Assembly (NCBI GenBank): GCA_963281255.1
Contig: OY725498.1
Location: forward strand, 2,356,001 to 2,420,000
Reading direction: 5' to 3'
Length of the DNA: 64,000 nt
Source: Aphrocallistes beatrix
Lineage: Eukaryota > Porifera > Hexactinellida > Sceptrulophora > Aphrocallistidae
Below the pieces are notes generated by a model, which saw only the letters and a program-made list of their open reading frames with translations, was not told where the DNA came from and did not search any database. Numbering within the stretch: position 1 is the first letter of the stretch; each line of letters opens with the position of its first letter. A program made the position numbers and the translations under genes. Positions 50,276 to 61,001 of the stretch are shown in pieces.

Positions 50276-51497
50276 GTCACCCTAGATTATTCATCATTAT
50301 GCTTGATTGATATCGAACAAATAGCAATCAAATACAAAACTCTTGCAACTGAACCTATTGTTTTGCTGAAAAAAATCGGACCCTGAGATTTTATCTATTT
50401 TTATTACAGAATTTCATGCTGATGCACAATCTGTGCTAAAAAATAATTCTGTGTGGAGAATTTTCGACAATTGCGGAATTATACTCCTTATTTATTTTAC
50501 TAATATTAATAGCCCATTTCTGCTAAATTATGGCTAATAGCTTCCCATAATTTCCATTTATTTTCACGGATAGTCGAACGTACTTTCAATTTATTTCCTA
50601 TTGTTGTTTTTACTAGTTTACTTATCTCATTATCGGATTTCGGAATAATATACTCTACTATGGCAACTGAAAACAGACACGATAGGGCGAGATTTCAGAT
50701 TTCTAGGTGGTGTTGTGTAAAGGTGGGTCATAGGGGAAGGATTACAGCTCTCACTGGACAGACTAGGCATCAGTATATCGAGCACTTTGAACCTATAGAT
50801 GATTCAGCAGCCGTATTCACTAAGATCTTAAGCACTAAGATCGATCTTAAGTCTTAAGATCGATCTTAGTTAAGATCGATCTTAAGATCGAACTTAGTGG
50901 TATTCCCTAAGAATTAAGATCGATCTTAAGATCGAACTTAGAAATAACTTTAGGGTTAATATTATTAGAATATAGCTTTATACTAATCAAATACAAAACT
51001 AAAGTATAATATTGGTAATGGTAAGTAGTCATTTAGTATTGATCTAGTAAAAATAAACTATATTTCTTCTTTTTGAGCAAAATTGAGGCCATTAATGTCA
51101 ATATTAGGAGCAAATAAGATTGATTAACCCACTCCTGTAAGACATAGCTTCTAACTATGTAGTTGTACCGCCTGGAATGCCTGGTGAGTGTCTTAGAATA
51201 TCTGTGGTTAAAGATTGTTTTGACTTGATTGAATTCTATTATGAAAATGCATTGTTTTATGTATGTAATCTATAATTATTCTACACTAGCCAATATAAAA
51301 GGAAGCAAGGAATCTTTATGGCAACCAACACATCTTTTGAATGTGGAATGTACATTGCAAAACTTATACTAGTGAAATACCAGTGTGATCTTACTTGCAC
51401 TCCGATGAAATTACTCTAGTATAATTAGGTTTATAATGAAAAAATTATATCCATTTCTTATTAATATTATCATATACCTTTCTCGGCTCATCTAAAT

Positions 51498-52538
51498 GGC
51501 AGGAATGATCCCATTGTTTTTAGCAGAAGATTCGGAAGAGTCACTCGAGAGAGAGAGAGTGTTCAGAGATCGTAGTGATCCTCTGGAATTCTATGATGAT
51601 CTAGAATTGTTGAGCGTTTTCGCTTCTCAAGGTCAGCAATATTAAAGATTACAGAGATCATAGTTGATCATCTTAATACAACTGATAGATCTCATGCTGC
51701 ACATCCACACGTACAAGTTTGTGTTGCTCTCCAATTTTTTGCATCTGGTACTTTTCAGATTATTTGTGGTGATGGAGTTCACGTGAGCCAACCCTCAGCT
51801 TGCAGGTACATCAGAGCCGTTGCACTTGGACTGCAATCGATATATTCAAAGTTCATTAGCATGCCCGGTTCTGCTGACAAGGCTACGATTAAGTCACAGT
51901 TTTATGAGCTCGCGAACCTCCCCGGCGTTCTTGGACTTGTAGATGGAACGCATGTTCGTATTCAAAAGCCTTCTGAAAATGAGGCAGATTATGTAAACAG
52001 ACATTTCTACCACTCCATAAACGTCCAAGCTATCTGTCTACCTGATGGTAGATTTTCCGATGTATTGGCAAGATTCCCCGGTTCAGTTCATGATTCACGT
52101 ATTTGGAAGCTCTCTCAGGTCGGAACATATGTGGAGAATAACTTCTTGGCTGGTGAGCATATATTAGGTGATAGTGGGTATATGCTGAAACCCTATTTAT
52201 TAACTCCATACAGGCAACCTGCTTCAAATGCCCAAGAGAATTATAATTACTCCCACAAAAAAACGCGTGTATTGATCGAGCAAACCTTTGGGAGATGGAA
52301 GAGAAGATTTCATTGCCTTCACGGCGAGATCCGGATGGCTCCAGATAAAGTCTGCACTATTATTCTTGCCTGTGCTGTTCTTCATAATATGGCTATTGTT
52401 TGGAAGCAGCCCATGTTGGAAGATTCCACTATTGACCATCATACAAGCATTATGGATGAACCGTTTACATTTGAGGAAACTGGACATATTGCTGCGAAAC
52501 ACTACAGGGATCAGTTTGCTATTCATAACTTTAGTTGA
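51498..52538 (+). CDS. PIF/Harbinger transposase (HARBI1-like)
   Basis: Likely start ATG at 51498: MAGMIPLFLAEDSEESLERE and RDRSDPLEFYDDLELLSVF are typical Harbinger N-termini. That frame ends at 51645; the next frame continues ILKITEIIVDHLNTTDRSHA and VALQFFASGTFQIICGDGVH into the long frame MSQPSACRYIRAVALGLQSI (51783-52538). The change near 51640 could be a one-base lesion or a mini-intron (CTCAAG/GTCAGC is donor-like). The catalytic triad is present: LGLVDGTHVRIQKP (Asp), EHILGDSGYML (Asp) and VLIEQTFGRWKRRFH (Glu), with the VHDSRIW motif between. The C-terminus ends AIHNFS. About 350 residues, normal for the family. It acts by cutting the TIRs together with the Myb-like partner. Confidence 0.88.
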
Positions 52539-52835
52539 ATTAATCTAAATTTAGGAGCTATCAAAGAGCATAAGTTGTATCTCATGCATTCATAATATTA
52601 TATTAAACAAAACATATAAACAACAAGTGTCTTTGTATATTGTAACATGAAAACCTCTCTAAGACAAAATATAAACACTGGATATGAGAAGTAAAATAAA
52701 TTTCTATCGACGCTAAGATTTCTGCGTCATTTGGTGTTACGAAAATAAATGGTGTCATTAGTGGTTATGGTAAGTCGGCGTCTTCCCGTGTATATAAATT
52801 GCTGCTGAGTACTTGCATTAACAATACCGAAACAA

Positions 52836-53575
52836 ATGGAAAAAACACGAAAATCAAATTGGACCAGAGAAGAAGAGTGCAGTCTCATTAATGAAATTGA
52901 GTCAGCAGGTGATATATTGAGAGGGTCAGGAAATTCTGCCGACAAAAACAAAAGGAGGAAACAAATCTGGAGAGACATCGCAGCCAAACTCAACTCAATA
53001 AATGGCAATGCCAGAGCTGTAGAGGATATCAGAAAAAAATGGAACAACCTAAAGCTAAACGCAAAGTCCAAAGTTGATGCCAGCTTTAGGGAAGCCAGAA
53101 AGACTGGAGGGGTACAAACAGTGCTGGACAGGTAGAAGACGAAGATATGCAAATCCTATCAGCAGATAGAAGTATTTTTGCTGACTCTGCAGATCGGGTA
53201 ACAGAGATGTTCCAAAACACTCCTGCTTTCAGTGGAATTTCAGGTACTGCTGATCTTTTTCTAGCACCAGCAATAGCGTCAACAGTATCAGCTGCAGGTC
53301 CAGATGAATCTGAAGATACTCCAATTTTAGAGTCTCCAGAAATTGAAATACCGACAACATATAAGGCATCAAAAAAAAGTCGGAAGAGAAGGCGAACTGT
53401 TGATGAACGAGATGATTCTTTCGAACTCTTGAAGGCTGCAGACTTACTTCCGTTACAGCAGGAAGTTTTGTTCCAGCAGATGGCTGTATTCTCAGCACAG
53501 CTGCAGTTAATAGAAGAACAGAGGGACTATTATCGATTAAAACGTCAGAGACTGCTGGAAAATCATTGTAAATAG
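52836..53575 (+). CDS. Myb/SANT-like DNA-binding protein of Harbinger
   Basis: MEKTRKSNWTREEECSLINE begins a Myb/SANT (MADF-like) trihelix: IWRDIAAKLNSINGNARAVE then DIRKKWNNLKLNAKSK. The first frame ends at 53135. A one-base change in a G run near 53110 (GTNSAGQVEDEDMQIL is the expected continuation) leads into the second frame to 53575. That frame has an acidic middle, a nuclear-localisation-like KKSRKRRRTVDER, and a Leu/Gln-rich coiled segment (LLPLQQEVLFQQMAVFSAQL) ending LKRQRLLENHC. In the family (NAIF1-like) this partner binds the TIRs and brings the transposase into the nucleus. Confidence 0.8.
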
Positions 53576-55929
53576 GAAAATAGGATCAAAGTAATTATCA
53601 TCAGTCATGTAAATCAAATATAAAGCCGTCTCTATAATTATGCATTTTAGAATTAGTGTAAGATGATACAATCAAAGAATGTATGCTTGTTTATTCATAC
53701 AAACCCAAGAAGAATATGCCACGAACTATAGCATGTGATATATGTTGCGATGTTACACACAATAAGAGAAATGTTTAAAAAATATTAAAATTTTATTTGA
53801 AGTCTAATATCAAACAAGGTAGATTCAATGTTCGATAGAAGTAAGTTTTAACAACATTTATGGAGTAATTAGTGAAAATCGAATCAATTCCAATACTTAA
53901 GACACCTCCCTAGGTTGCTTAAAGTTCGGTCTTAAGTTCGGTCTTAAGATCGAACTTAAATCTTAGTGAATACCAATCTTAGTGAATACGACTTAAGATC
54001 GAACTTAAGACTTAAGCACTAAGATCGATCTTAAGATCGATCTTAAGTTCTTAGTGAATACGGCCGCAGATTATTATCGCCCTTTAGTCGTTTGTACAGC
54101 ATGCAAAATATACTTGGCAAAAGCTTCACGAGGTAGCCCACCAAAGAAAGTTCCTTCGAGATTTCCGTGGTCAACTAGAACTGCCACTAGAACTAACGAC
54201 TGTAGCGCCTTGAAAAATGGAAATGGTGTAGGTAAAATGTGTCTTATGTGCACAGAAGCAACACGGTTAGGAACACGGAAGAAAGCAGCACTATTGATTC
54301 GTGATTCAAGGGTAGGACGACCTCTTGAGAAATCCCCTCAGAAGTAAATTCTTCGATGCAACAAATGTGCCAGAGCCACTTCTCGAGGCATTCGACATCG
54401 ATGTAATAATATTTCCCTTATTTCAAATGTTCGCTCGGTACTTCAATATAAGACCTGTCTAAACCGATTTCTAGCGGATGATATTACCCGAAAATTTCGT
54501 TTTGAAAAGTCACCCAAATATTGTACTACCTTAGCACGTCCACTAGGGGGTCATCCTCTACAAATTACAGTGTCCACTTCTAAACTTCCTAGTGAATCGC
54601 AAAATTCTCAAGGACAATCATACAAATTCAATATGACCCATATCGCGAGTTTAAAAAGAGCTGGTTCTGGGATGAGAAACAATAAGCAAGTCACCCAAAT
54701 CATTCGCAAAACTGGGATAAAATGCCCAACCACATCACATTATTACATTGAACGCGAAGCTCTATTTCAGGGCTGTATGGAATATACAAAATTGGAACTT
54801 GATACTGGGAAGAAGCATAAAGAAACCTGGAGTTAATTTGGACAGTACGTTGTATTGACGTAAAAACATTGCTAGAACGCATTTACAACCTTTACAACCC
54901 CCAAGGAAATATTAATGTTACTCTACTCCATTTCAAGTTAGGGTTGGATTATGGGAGAAGTTTTTTAAAGCTGCTTATCTCTAAGCGACTGGAAAACACG
55001 GTGAATGCTGTTTACTATCTCTGGGTTGCTCTGGTCCCTGAAACATATCATAACTTCCGGGTAATATTTGATCATGAACAGATGAAACTGTTATTTTCGG
55101 AATATAATATTTCACTTACCGTTGACCTCAAGGCAGCATCCATTGCATGCAGAGTGATGCTCGGGCGTTGCCCTTGCATTTGGTGCAATTGGGATGTAAA
55201 TGATCATTTCAATCAAAGCTCTACGAATAAGATTAGAAACAGTGACCATCATATGGAAATATGGAATCAGCTCCAATTGAAATTTAAAGGAAACTCAAAT
55301 CATTCCAAAGAGTGTGATGGTGTCGAAAATCTGCCAGTGCTAGATAGTTGGCTTGTTAATAACATGGAAATCTGGAATATTTCCGAACTTCACCTTCTCC
55401 TAGGTATAGGGCAGAAATTGTATGAAATCTTCGATACTATGTCAGTAAATGAGCAAAATCAGCACACTGAGCTGTTGAAAAAATATGGAATCATGAAAAG
55501 CGACTACCAAAGCAAGGCTTTTGAGGGAAATGCCATGAGCAAACTCCTAAAAAACATCCCAAACTTGGGAATGAATCCTAATAATTCTTGTGTGATCGCA
55601 TTAAAACGTTTCTCTGAAGTCGTAGAAAGTTGCTTTGGCACTGTTCTCACTGGTGATTATTCCCAAGCATTACTGAATATTGAGGAAGCCTACAAACAAA
55701 CTGGACTAAGCTGTACTGTGAAAGTACATTGCCTCTGTCGTCATGTCAGAACATTTATCAAAGAATTTTTGCCCCAAGGAGCAGGTATTGGTGCAGTATC
55801 TGAACAGGGGTTTGAGAGCTCTCTTTCCAGATTTAAAAATGTTTGGGAGAGACAATACAAGTGCAATCAACATAGCCCTTCTCTACGCCAATAATATATA
55901 CTTCACAGTTTGTGAGCTCATGTACTGCA

Positions 55930-56026
55930 ATTTTATGACGAACAACTAGTCTTGCGTACTAATCAGCTATTAGATTAGGTATACGTAATTACGTATGTAT
56001 TGTGAACATTATTTATTCTTTCATAC
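55930..56026. other. Non-coding spacer
   Basis: Short AT-rich spacer after the central coding part, before a MITE. Confidence 0.4.
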
Positions 56027-56373
56027 TTGCCAACCGTCCCGTTTTTTGGACATATGATGAGAGGTACGTCCCACGAAAACGTTCCAAAAAGTGTAATTGT
56101 CCCGCTTTTTCAGTCTATAGGACTAATACTAATATACTATGTCCCGCTAAGATATTACTTATGTCCCTTTTTGTTCCTTGCAGACAGTGGCGGATCTCTC
56201 TTAAATTCTTGGGGGCTCAAGATCTCTTTTTCGTCTCGAATATTAGAGCACTGTTGATATTAAATACAATATTTACAATAGGGAGTAAAATTATTGGAGG
56301 GGGTCAATTGCCGCCCCCTGACCCCCCCCCCCCCCCGGTTGTCCGCCACTGCTGGCAGAGGTTAGCATGTATG
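56027..56373. mobile_element. MITE with CATACTTGCCAACC ends
   Basis: Left CATACTTGCCAACCGTCCCG, right (reverse) CATACATGCTAACC. 'gtcccg' and 'gtcccac' recur inside. It is interrupted by the hAT MITE at 56185-56351. Confidence 0.5.
56185..56351. mobile_element. hAT-type MITE (CAGTGGCGGA ends)
   Basis: Left CAGTGGCGGATCTCTCTTAA, right (reverse) CAGTGGCGGACAACCGGGGG. The flanks CTTGCAGA (56177-56184) and CTGGCAGA (56352-56359) match at 7/8. A C14 run near 56325-56338. 167 bp. Confidence 0.8.
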
Positions 56374-56569
56374 TTCTTTCGACAATTAATTATTGCTAAT
56401 ACAGTTGAAACCAATTTTTATACCTGTGTATACCTGTGCTTTTTCACAATAAGCAGACTTCAAAAGAATAGTCTAAATACAAAACCTACATATGTAGACT
56501 GTTAAATTCATACCATGAGTTAGTTTAAGACAAGAGAATGTTCACAATAACCGGATTAAATACATAACT

Positions 56570-57013
56570 TTATTTCGCATTCGTTAGGATACCAGCTGTA
56601 CTTGAGTCCCGGGGCCGTCCTACCCTTGCATGACGAATCAATAGTGCTGCATTTTTCCTTGAACCAAACCGTATTGCTTCTGTGCACATAAGACACATTT
56701 TGACTACACTATTTCCATTTTTCAAGGCGCTACAGTCGTTAGTTCTAGTGGCAGTTCTAGCTGGCCACGGAAATCTCGAAGGAACTTTCTTTGGTGGGCT
56801 ACCTCGTGAAGCTTTTGCCAAGTATATTTTGCATGCTGTACAAACGACTAAAGGGCGATAATAATCTGAATCATCTATAGGTTCAAAGTGCTCGATATAC
56901 TGATTCCTAGTCTGTCCAGTGAGAGATGTAATCCTTCCCCTATGACCCACCTTTACACAACACCACCTAGAAATCTGAAATCTCGCCCTATCGTGTCTGT
57001 TTTCAGTTGCCAT
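56570..57013 (-). CDS. Cys-rich N-terminal domain protein, right-arm copy, intact short ORF
   Basis: MATENRHDRARFQISRWCCV from 57013, 147 codons, no break. Cys pairs: C18 C19, C58xxC61, C94, C107xxC110, a likely zinc-binding domain, with basic GSPPKKVPSRFPWPARTATR between. It ends RPRDSSTAGILTNAK. The stop overlaps an AATAAA poly(A) signal (TTTATT at 56569-56574 on the plus strand). The left arm encodes nearly the same domain but goes on into more protein. This copy would give only the putative DNA-binding part, which might act as a competitor of the full protein (inference). Confidence 0.55.
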   Translation of the reverse strand: MATENRHDRARFQISRWCCVKVGHRGRITSLTGQTRNQYIEHFEPIDDSDYYRPLVVCTACKIYLAKASRGSPPKKVPSRFPWPARTATRTNDCSALKNGNSVVKMCLMCTEAIRFGSRKNAALLIRHARVGRPRDSSTAGILTNAK

Positions 57014-57264
57014 AGTAGAGTATATTATTCCGAAATCCAATAATGAGAAATAAATTGAAAGTACGTTCGACTATCCTTGAAAATAAATGGAAATTATGGG
57101 AAGCTATTAGACATAATTTAGCTAAAATGGGCTATTAATATTAGTAAAATAAATAAGGAGTATAATTCTGCAATTGTAGAAAATTCACCACACAGAATTA
57201 TTTTTTTAGCACAGATTGTGCATCAGCATGAAATTCTGAAATAAAAATAGATATAATCTTTTAG

Positions 57265-58581: not shown

Positions 58582-61001
58582 GGTTGGCCTTTCCTATGGG
58601 CATTTTGTTTTTTATCAAAAATTTGCAAAAATACCATTTTAAACATTTTTAGATCCCTAAAGGGGTTCTAAACATTTATTTCGATTTTAGAATTTCAATG
58701 CTAATATTTCGCCACTTAGAGCCACTTGTCAAATCACCTGGTGTCGCCCAAAAAAGGACACATTTTTGAAGCGAAATGTCTCATATCTATAACTTCTTTG
58801 AACTATGTCAGATCATCTTTTTAATGCTAAATTCGTGCTCAGCACTAAATTTCCAGCAATTTGATATATATATATTGGACACATTTGGAGAAATCTTTTG
58901 GCTGCGGGTTCTTAGCAACGGCCAGGAATGTGAAAAAATTCCGGGCCGTTGCTAAGTACGGAATTCAGAAGAATTCTCCAAATATGGTCAATATATATAT
59001 CAAATTGCTGGAAATTCAATGGGGGACACGAATTCAGATGATGATCTGACATGGTTCAAAGAAGTTATTGATCTGGGAATCCAGCGGATAATATCGAATG
59101 TGGTTATTTTTGCGTGGCCAGTCATCAATAACCAGTTTTTCACTCTTTTAATGGTGAAAATTTTTGATATACCATATTTTGAAGTTGAGTACTGCTATAA
59201 GTTGTCGAATATGGATATTCGCATGTTATTTAATATTCCAAAGCAGTTAAAACTAATGGAAATTGAGGAACATATACAAATATTTTCTAAATCCTAATTT
59301 CTGAGACTTTTTTTCAGCAATTATAAAGGTGATAACCTTTTGTAAATTCAACATATGGGCGAAAACTCAACGGTTTTTAATAGATCTCGAAGAGTAGAAC
59401 ATAATGAACAGACATAATTTATATATTAGGAATGAAAAAAGAATTATGAAAAAAATAGTGTCAAAATTACTAAAAATAAAATTCCTCGGGTTTTTTGGTG
59501 TGAATTTTTAACAATTTTCAATATTTCAAAAATCTGTCTTTTCATTAGATAGATCATCCATTTATGAAAGAATTTGAAAAGTTTCTAAAGAGTTGGAAAC
59601 ATATTGTGTCCGAATTCTTCCTTGTAAATTTACCAATTTTTTAAAAGAAATTTATATCTGTTGAATTATTTCGATTATTAATGCAGTTTTGCAGATAACT
59701 CTGCGATTCAAATCTGCGATGAAAAAATTAAATGAATCGGTTGAAAAAGTCAAAAGTTGGCTATTATAGGAAAGGCAAACTTAACTTAAGTATTTACTTA
59801 AACTTAAGGTTGGCCTTTCCTATAATAGCTAAATCTTGACTTTTTCAACCTATTCATTAATTTTTTTCAGTGCAGATTTGAAACAGAGAGTTATCTGCAA
59901 AACTGCATTAATAATTGAAATATTGTAAAAGATAAAAAATTTTTGTAAAATTTGGCATTTTACAAGTAAGAAATCGAACACAATATGCTTACAATCCTTT
60001 AGAAACTTTTCAAATTCATTCATAAATCGATGATCTAACTATTGAACAGACAGATTTTGAAAATTTGAATATTGTTATAAATTCACACCAAAACACCTCG
60101 AGGAATTATATTTTTAGTATTTTGGCACTATTTTTATCATAATTCACTTTTCATTCCTAATATCAAAAATATGTCTGTTCATTATGTTTTACTCTTCGAG
60201 ATCTATCAAAATCCGTTGAGTTTTCGCATCTATGTTGAATCTACAAAAAGTTATTACCTTTATTATTGCTGAAAAAAAAGTGTCAGAAAATAGGATTTAG
60301 AAAATATTTATACAAGCCCCTCAATTTCCATTAGTTTTAACTGCTTTGGAATATTAAATACATGCAAATATCCTTATTCGACAACTTATAGCAGCACTTA
60401 ACTTCAAAATATGGTATATCAAAATTTTTCACCATCAAAAGTGTAAAAACTGGTCATTGATGACTGACCACACAAAAATAACCACATTCGATAGTATCCG
60501 CCGGAATCCCAGATCAATTCCTTCTTTGAACCATGTCAGAACATCATTTTAATGCTAAATTCAGGCTCAGGAGTAAACCTCCAGCAATTTGATATATATA
60601 TTGACCATATTCGGAGATTTTTTTTATGTCCGTGCATTGCAACGGCCAGGAATTTTTTCAAATTCCTGGCCGTTGCTAGGAACACGCAGCCAAAGAATTT
60701 ATCCAAATGTGTCCAATATATATATCAAATTGCTGGAAATTTGGTGCTGAGCACAAATTTAACATTAGAATGATGATCTGACATGGTTCTAAGAAGTTAT
60801 GGATATGAGACATTTCGGTTCAAAAATGTGTCATTTTTGAGCGACACCAGGTGGTACAAGTGGCTCTAAGTGGCGAAATATTACCATTGAAATTCTAAAA
60901 ATCGAGATCAGTTTAGAACCCCTTTAGGGATCTAAAAATGATTAAAAAGCCCTTTGGCAAATTTTTGATAAAAAACAAAATGCCTATAGGAAAGGCCAAC
61001 C
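58582..61001. mobile_element. 2.42-kb palindrome FB2: two inverted copies of a 1.2-kb TIR element
   Basis: The outer ends GGTTGGCCTTTCCTATGGGC and (reverse) GGTTGGCCTTTCCTATAGGC, with symmetry centre at about 59791 in CTTAAGTATTTACTTAAACT. At the centre each arm again ends in the same sequence (CTATTATAGGAAAGGCAAAC and GGTTGGCCTTTCCTATAATA), so each arm is itself a TIR element. The arms are imperfect, with many single differences. Each arm also carries a hairpin with 'caatttgatatatata' ends and GGCCAGGAAT/CCTGGCCGTTGC cores (58853-59012 and 60582-60742). The plus frames (up to 92 codons) show no domain. Confidence 0.85.
58853..59012. repeat. Nested hairpin in FB2 left arm
   Basis: CCAGCAATTTGATATATATA at the left and its reverse complement at the right enclose GCAACGGCCAGGAATGTG and AATTCCGGGCCGTTGC, two inverted cores. 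The counterpart at 60582-60742 is similar. It may be a small element that was present before the arms duplicated. Confidence 0.7.

Follow-up and report, generated by a model that had tools for sequence, protein, structure and literature searches.

The stretch of DNA analysed here, a 64,000-nt window of the Aphrocallistes beatrix genome (GCA_963281255.1, contig OY725498.1, positions 2,356,001-2,420,000 of the forward strand; all coordinates below are those of the window), carries at 50340-57259 on the + strand a DNA transposon of what we call family A, which its motifs and ends appear to place in the CMCT clade. Its two arms are the terminal inverted repeats (TIRs) of one element, and coding sequence lies inside them. 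We consider it probable that this is an inactive CMCT transposon whose ancestral TIRs grew inward over the element's own 5' side, that its arms were later copied onto one another, and that the open reading frame (ORF) on the right arm is passive. The window copy is old and inactive; its right terminus is gone and its gene frame is broken. It measures ~3.66 kb without a second transposon nested in it, and is ~94% identical to another copy on contig 15.

The inward-pointing arms reported in a first-pass annotation of the window are real. With the nested transposon left out, the left and right arms are equal at 619 of 646 aligned bases (95.8%, where ~97% had been claimed). The alignment also contains a gap of 29 bp in the right arm and one of 1 bp, and three further bases are the target duplication of the nest. 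They were aligned by blastn in two pieces of 423 and 256 bases, with E values of 1.9e-171 and 1.0e-111 that exclude a chance likeness. The left arm had been taken for one continuous piece, but is split by a 3,259-bp PIF/Harbinger element that the annotation missed. Its outer part (50340-50807, +) holds the 5' region and the ATG (50660) of the transposase gene, and its inner part (54070-54322, +) holds the rest of the N-terminal domain and is 94% complementary to 56613-56868. The right TIR (56613-57259, -) lacks its outer ~46 bp. The ends of the element, put at 50386 and 57259 in the annotation, also had to be revised: the left end persists in diverged form to ~50340, the right arm is cut at 57259, and in the contig-15 copy the inverted repeat extends ~46 bp beyond the equivalents of 50386 and 57259 on both sides. 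Since neither position is a true end of the element, no target duplication is expected there.

An ATG and a Cys-rich N-terminus are present on each arm, and only the left arm continues into the gene with its GHPLQITV, KLGLDYGRSFLK and SEQGFESS blocks, both as first described. The part of the transposase gene that encodes the N-terminal domain spans 50660-54347 (+), contains the nest and has an in-frame stop near 54345. The catalytic core lies at 54869-55894 (+) and contains, in order, D1 (GLDYG), D2 (TVDLKAA), C(2)C (CPCIWC), LHxxLG, H(4)H (HCLCRH) and E (SEQ). The right-arm ORF (56570-57013, -) starts at the ATG at 57013 and ends at 56570 in a stop codon of its own, which overlaps AATAAA as had been noticed before; its 147 aa comprise the N-terminal domain followed by a private tail of 13 residues. 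The coding sequence inside the family A arm begins with the start codon and covers about 133 N-terminal-domain codons.

The 100.5-Mb genome was searched with 422 bp of the arm as a DNA query, very common words being skipped and 4/4 candidates scored. Four arms were found, two in the window and two on contig 15. The contig-15 copy is ~3.7 kb long, has no nest, and carries the N-terminal ORF on both arms, standing alone on one (152 aa) and running into the gene on the other. Both copies are broken. The only other copy found possesses both arms, and its short arm has an identical inner junction, which upholds the interpretation of the arms as TIRs holding coding sequence. It would be conceivable that a truncated copy had landed inverted beside a full one, and nested insertion does happen within the window element. 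However, the inner junction is the same in both copies although their flanks are unrelated, the inner end of the right arm lies inside coding sequence and shows no CAC[AG]GGT terminus, and the arms share private mutations copy by copy. Two separate insertions are therefore extremely improbable, and are largely contradicted by the second copy; the search for copies lacking the right arm, or having it as a separate insertion, favours one element. The same two-arm architecture in unrelated flanks was thus inherited from a common ancestor that still transposed.

The two copies share a short non-coding insert resembling a miniature inverted-repeat transposable element (MITE), at 56185-56351 (+) in the window and at the same site on contig 15. 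Its ends are CAGTGGCGGA..TCCGCCACTG, it is flanked by a near 8-bp duplication (CTTGCAGA/CTGGCAGA, 7/8 positions equal), and it was found in the genome only in these two copies. Taken by itself, this would fit a single segmental duplication, in which case the second copy would be no independent witness. But the copies cease to be similar at 50347 and 57259, positions that coincide with the TIR ends or lie close to them, and their 1-kb flanks are unalignable; the shared insert is explained if both copies derive from a single transposing ancestor in which it was already present. We consider a segmental duplication very improbable.

The sites within the arms point to copying between them. Alignment columns before 85 were excluded for family A because the right arm of the window copy is cut off there. 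In columns 85-706, all six sites that divide the four arms two against two group them by copy, while in columns 710-743 all five such sites group them by arm. Subfamily C, a set of relatives described below, gave the same picture in three copies: 10/10 informative sites before column 807 are common to both arms of one copy, and 21/21 from column 852 on split left from right. Over ~809 sites, the left and right arms of subfamily C differ at 2-3 positions within a copy as against 5-12 between copies. In family A and subfamily C, mutations private to one copy are thus found on both of its arms, and this pattern changes abruptly close to the inner end.

A search of the genome with the core (54869-55891) gave 72 matching stretches, its own and fragments counted. 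We retrieved 30 loci (L011-L040) with 1.5-kb flanks, and read 13 elements further out, including the window and contig-15 copies. Several relatives have long open frames of 761-795 aa, and one on contig 8, with an intact ORF, is open over 769 aa. A search of viral contigs gave 51 pattern matches, with no relative among them. In sister family B (two elements read, ~50% amino acid identity) the TIRs are ~145 bp long and contain no coding sequence; it is because of these two elements that the TIR growth in family A looks derived. The TIRs of subfamily D (three elements, ~340 bp) also contain no coding sequence, and two elements of subfamily E have 196 and 248 bp of detected repeat. Subfamily C has TIRs of ~889-915 aligned bp, and its right TIR holds the last 52 codons of the gene in 3/3 elements measured. 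It is the mirror image of family A, with the 3' end of the gene rather than its start inside the TIR. A second terminal motif (CACAGGTG[TC]CATTA) was seen 144 bp inside each end of the subfamily C TIRs in 3/3 elements (contigs 3, 4 and 8). In a subfamily C transposase frame, at ~1-600 of L021 on contig 20 and open over 1116 aa, an [AP]TQLVVER unit is expanded in frame, in a long tandem array which continues past the edge of the retrieved locus.

Based on these comparisons, we hypothesise that in an ancestor of family A the 5' side of the element, comprising the upstream region, the start codon and the Cys-rich N-terminal domain, was copied onto the other end. The most likely route would be template switching between the arms during repair of the break left by excision. 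Later copying from arm to arm would have kept the arms of each copy alike except in their last ~50 bp; the site pattern is observed, and the mechanism is our proposal. Copying within the element, by a putative enzymatic route, would account for the homogenisation of the arms and, where a tract overshot the old inner boundary, for the extension of the TIR into the gene. The present copy lacks its right terminus and an intact gene frame, and a PIF/Harbinger transposon has inserted into it. Most likely, the right-arm ORF has arisen passively, as a by-product; its transcription, if it occurs, would yield a truncated N-terminal protein.

The first-pass annotation had seen in this ORF a possible built-in repressor. 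In that case a right-arm transcript would yield the N-terminal domain alone, and this would keep transposition low by binding the ends or by forming dimers with the transposase. Truncated P-element proteins do repress transposition. Both copies have a broken main gene and yet an uninterrupted right-arm ORF, of 147 and 152 aa respectively; its arm presumably carries the gene's own promoter, and its stop overlaps AATAAA. Moreover, the coding part of the arm has fewer variable sites than the upstream non-coding part (16/333 versus 24/244, Fisher p 0.021), possibly owing to constraint that predates these insertions. The pattern of substitution speaks otherwise. Substitutions affect 13 of the 113 codons aligned across the four arms, and the residue varies in all 13, two of which also have a silent change; the nonsynonymous rate exceeds the synonymous one in 5/6 arm pairs. 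In the window copy, Ser replaces the first Cys of the CxxC pair on both arms. The contig-15 arm ORF has suffered an 11-bp and two 1-bp deletions, and reads past the stop into a different tail. A search with the right-arm protein gave 15 matches in the genome, none of them in subfamilies C-E, and among these matches the domain stands on both arms only in the two family A copies. The arm ORFs show no sign of purifying selection since insertion. A repressor function is thus unsupported, and we regard it as unlikely. A wider reading is improbable as well: the TIRs of this RAG1-related lineage would repeatedly take up parts of the transposase gene, conversion between arms would keep them alike in each copy, and the second, N-terminal-only gene would then co-evolve with the transposase as a self-matching repressor in the transposon end.

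The domain had been called zinc-binding. Its Cys pairs are indeed conserved, and these together with sub-threshold matches to zf-AD (PF07776), listed in 3/7 proteins, make zinc binding a plausible property; the best match reaches 11.9 bits (E 0.27) with a cut-off of 28 bits. An alignment of the N-terminal domain gave TFIIE as its best match in the PDB (E 0.37), which we judged to be chance. Compared by hhalign with residues 110-313 of mouse RAG1, to look for the Chapa N-terminal zinc domain of Chapaev, the N-terminus scored no better than 14/60 full shuffles and 26/60 shuffles with the Cys positions fixed, and its homology to the RAG1 N-terminus is not supported.

To classify the transposon whose TIRs appear to have grown inward, we compared its ends and core with those of its relatives. 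Ends and target-site duplications (TSDs) were counted in the nine elements with both ends read; the window copy, one subfamily C element (C13_C) and two subfamily E elements were left out because an end was missing or unread. CAC[AG]GGT..ACC[CT]GTG ends occur in 8/9, the exception being the contig-15 family A copy with one end altered, and five of the nine have an exact 4-bp TSD (AAGT, ATCC, AGTT, ATTA and ACTT). Motif spacing was tabulated in 19 rows representing 16 distinct elements, selected by D2, C(2)C and SEQ, so that the table shows spacing and not frequency. D1 and D2 are 59 or 70 residues apart in 14/19 rows, D1 being unmatched by the pattern in the other five. PCxxC follows D2 by 17 or 19 residues in 19/19 rows, and C103 and C106 are invariant in nine aligned proteins. 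H(4)H is found in 16/19 rows (14/16 distinct elements), L024 and L031 being without it, and is followed after 20 or 21 residues by the E of SEQ. The invariant LHxxLG/LHILLG of the family resembles PLHxxLR in two loci of the genome that match the Pfam RAG1 model (PF12940).

In its description (PMC12730594, 2025), the CMCT clade is characterised by two motifs that separate D2 from E, C(2)C and H(3-4)H, and by mostly CA..TG termini and TSDs of 2-5 bp, a figure legend mentions three conserved His, and the members given are EnSpm/CACTA, Mirage, Chapaev, Transib, Plavaka, ESTA and Lanisha, along with RAG1. All of these features of motif, termini and TSD length were found in the family. When the core was compared with Transib/RAG1 C-termini by hhalign, the score of 23.6 (P 0.025, probability 2%) lay above 100/100 column shuffles, with the motifs in register. 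We therefore place the family in the CMCT clade and in no named superfamily, since signature, termini and TSD fit and the RAG1 and DUF1280 models do not match. The family had been described as seemingly unnamed; this holds in so far as no Pfam or NCBIfam model reaches its cut-off for the core, while catalytic signature, termini and TSD point to a known clade. The best sub-threshold matches of the core, WAC_Acf1 (E 0.014) and Lipoprotein_11 (E 0.058), were judged to be chance.

Named superfamilies were considered in turn. PF12940 has 19 matches in the genome, none of which reaches the Pfam cut-off or falls on family loci, and the TSD is 4 bp where Transib/RAG1 is defined by 5 bp in PMC4411706, so that membership of Transib was rejected. 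DUF1280 (PF06918), which is said to represent Chapaev transposases in PMC3985635, was not among the matches at E<=10 in seven family proteins. Its sole match in the genome, C2:3741410 (E 0.0043, below cut-off), lies outside the family's matches, and the model is possibly narrow, matching 0/14 control genomes. Transposase_21 (PF02992) had no match in the family, nor in any control genome. Kolobok was considered on account of a TTAA inside the subfamily C TIR, and rejected: the outer ends are CACGGGT, the TSD is 4 bp and not TTAA, and the RR..YY termini are absent.

Some observations weigh against our reading, both of the arms and of the clade. With only two family A copies found, the history of its arms is read from 11 informative sites. 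Of the 25 such sites in subfamily D, 15 go with side, one goes with copy and nine are mixed, so that arm homogenisation is not general. Four of the nine elements counted (C4_C, C15_D, C15_B and C15_A) have no exact TSD; for C15_A the ends were left unpaired by the script, and no TSD was seen by eye. The hhalign comparison with Transib/RAG1 gives a probability of only 2%, which leaves motif order and spacing as the main link to CMCT. Neither RAG1 nor Transib was among the matches when the PDB was searched with the core (one match at E 0.18 with the nine-row alignment, and one at E 2.3 with L041), and an AlphaFold2 model of the core alone was useless, with a pLDDT of 36.

The nested PIF/Harbinger transposon occupies 50808-54066 (+) and has ORFs at 51783-52538 (DDE_Tnp_4, E 3.5e-44) and 53147-53575. 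CAG flanks it on both sides (50805-50807 and 54067-54069), and its left end, CAGCCGTATTCACTAAG, is found with a preceding TCAG in 3/4 other distinct loci checked, L005 and L010 being one place. It belongs to an abundant family: of 383 candidates for its left ~250 bp, 40 were scored, and 36 of these are matches at other places. Three retrieved loci (L006-L008) differ from it internally. Further along the window, at 59639-59950, a 142-nt inverted repeat, 85% complementary around a 28-nt loop, is a candidate foldback MITE. Elsewhere in the genome, separate RAG1-profile loci (L052-L055, on contigs 2, 13 and 14) are among the 19 sub-cut-off PF12940 matches. As L053 matches the solved HzTransib (E 7.6e-13), a Transib family seems, by sequence, to be present. 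A PDB search with the D2-C(2)C stretch of L054 gave no Transib (best E 1.4), so that L053 is the only PF12940 locus tied to Transib.

Taken as a whole, one genome shows TIRs grown into either end of the transposase gene, and the arms of individual copies evolving in concert up to a sharp boundary. How long TIRs originate can therefore be tested in the very clade to which the ancestor of V(D)J recombination belongs. The element is also a natural example of how both ends might come to express an N-terminal domain that possibly binds them. The family agrees with the CMCT clade in having a DDE transposase whose D2 and E are separated by C(2)C and H(4)H, in its CA..TG termini and in a TSD within 2-5 bp; it differs in its TIRs of ~145-915 bp in the elements read, its D1-D2 spacing of 59 or 70, and in matching no RAG1, DUF1280 or Transposase_21 model. 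Chapaev elements have a 4-bp TSD, as does the family, and a Cys-rich N-terminal region ahead of the core is also common to both; unlike Chapaev, the family is missed by the DUF1280 profile, and homology of its N-terminus to that of RAG1 is not supported.

KolobokP (PMC9587614) has direct terminal repeats of ~450 or ~660 bp around a DDE transposase, and an extra endonuclease, and Kolobok has a TTAA TSD. The long terminal repeats flanking a DDE transposase are shared, but those of KolobokP are direct and not inverted, and TSD and endonuclease set it apart. A parallel for the arms themselves is Galileo, of the P superfamily in Drosophila, whose long TIRs take up sequence from the interior of the element (PMC4168063, PMC3573991); one D. 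willistoni copy has the final 69 bp of its ORF inside the 3' TIR, and the same bases recur in inverted orientation at the 5' TIR. Absorption of coding sequence into TIRs is thus already known, there for the 3' end of the gene and here for the start codon and Cys-rich domain. We met no description of start-codon absorption in the literature searched, which was gathered mostly on other questions, with most subscription journals and Repbase Reports outside it. Galileo and family A have in common long TIRs with recruited internal and coding sequence; Galileo belongs to another superfamily with a 7-bp TSD, and has absorbed the 3' end of its ORF, whereas family A has taken in the start codon and N-terminal domain.

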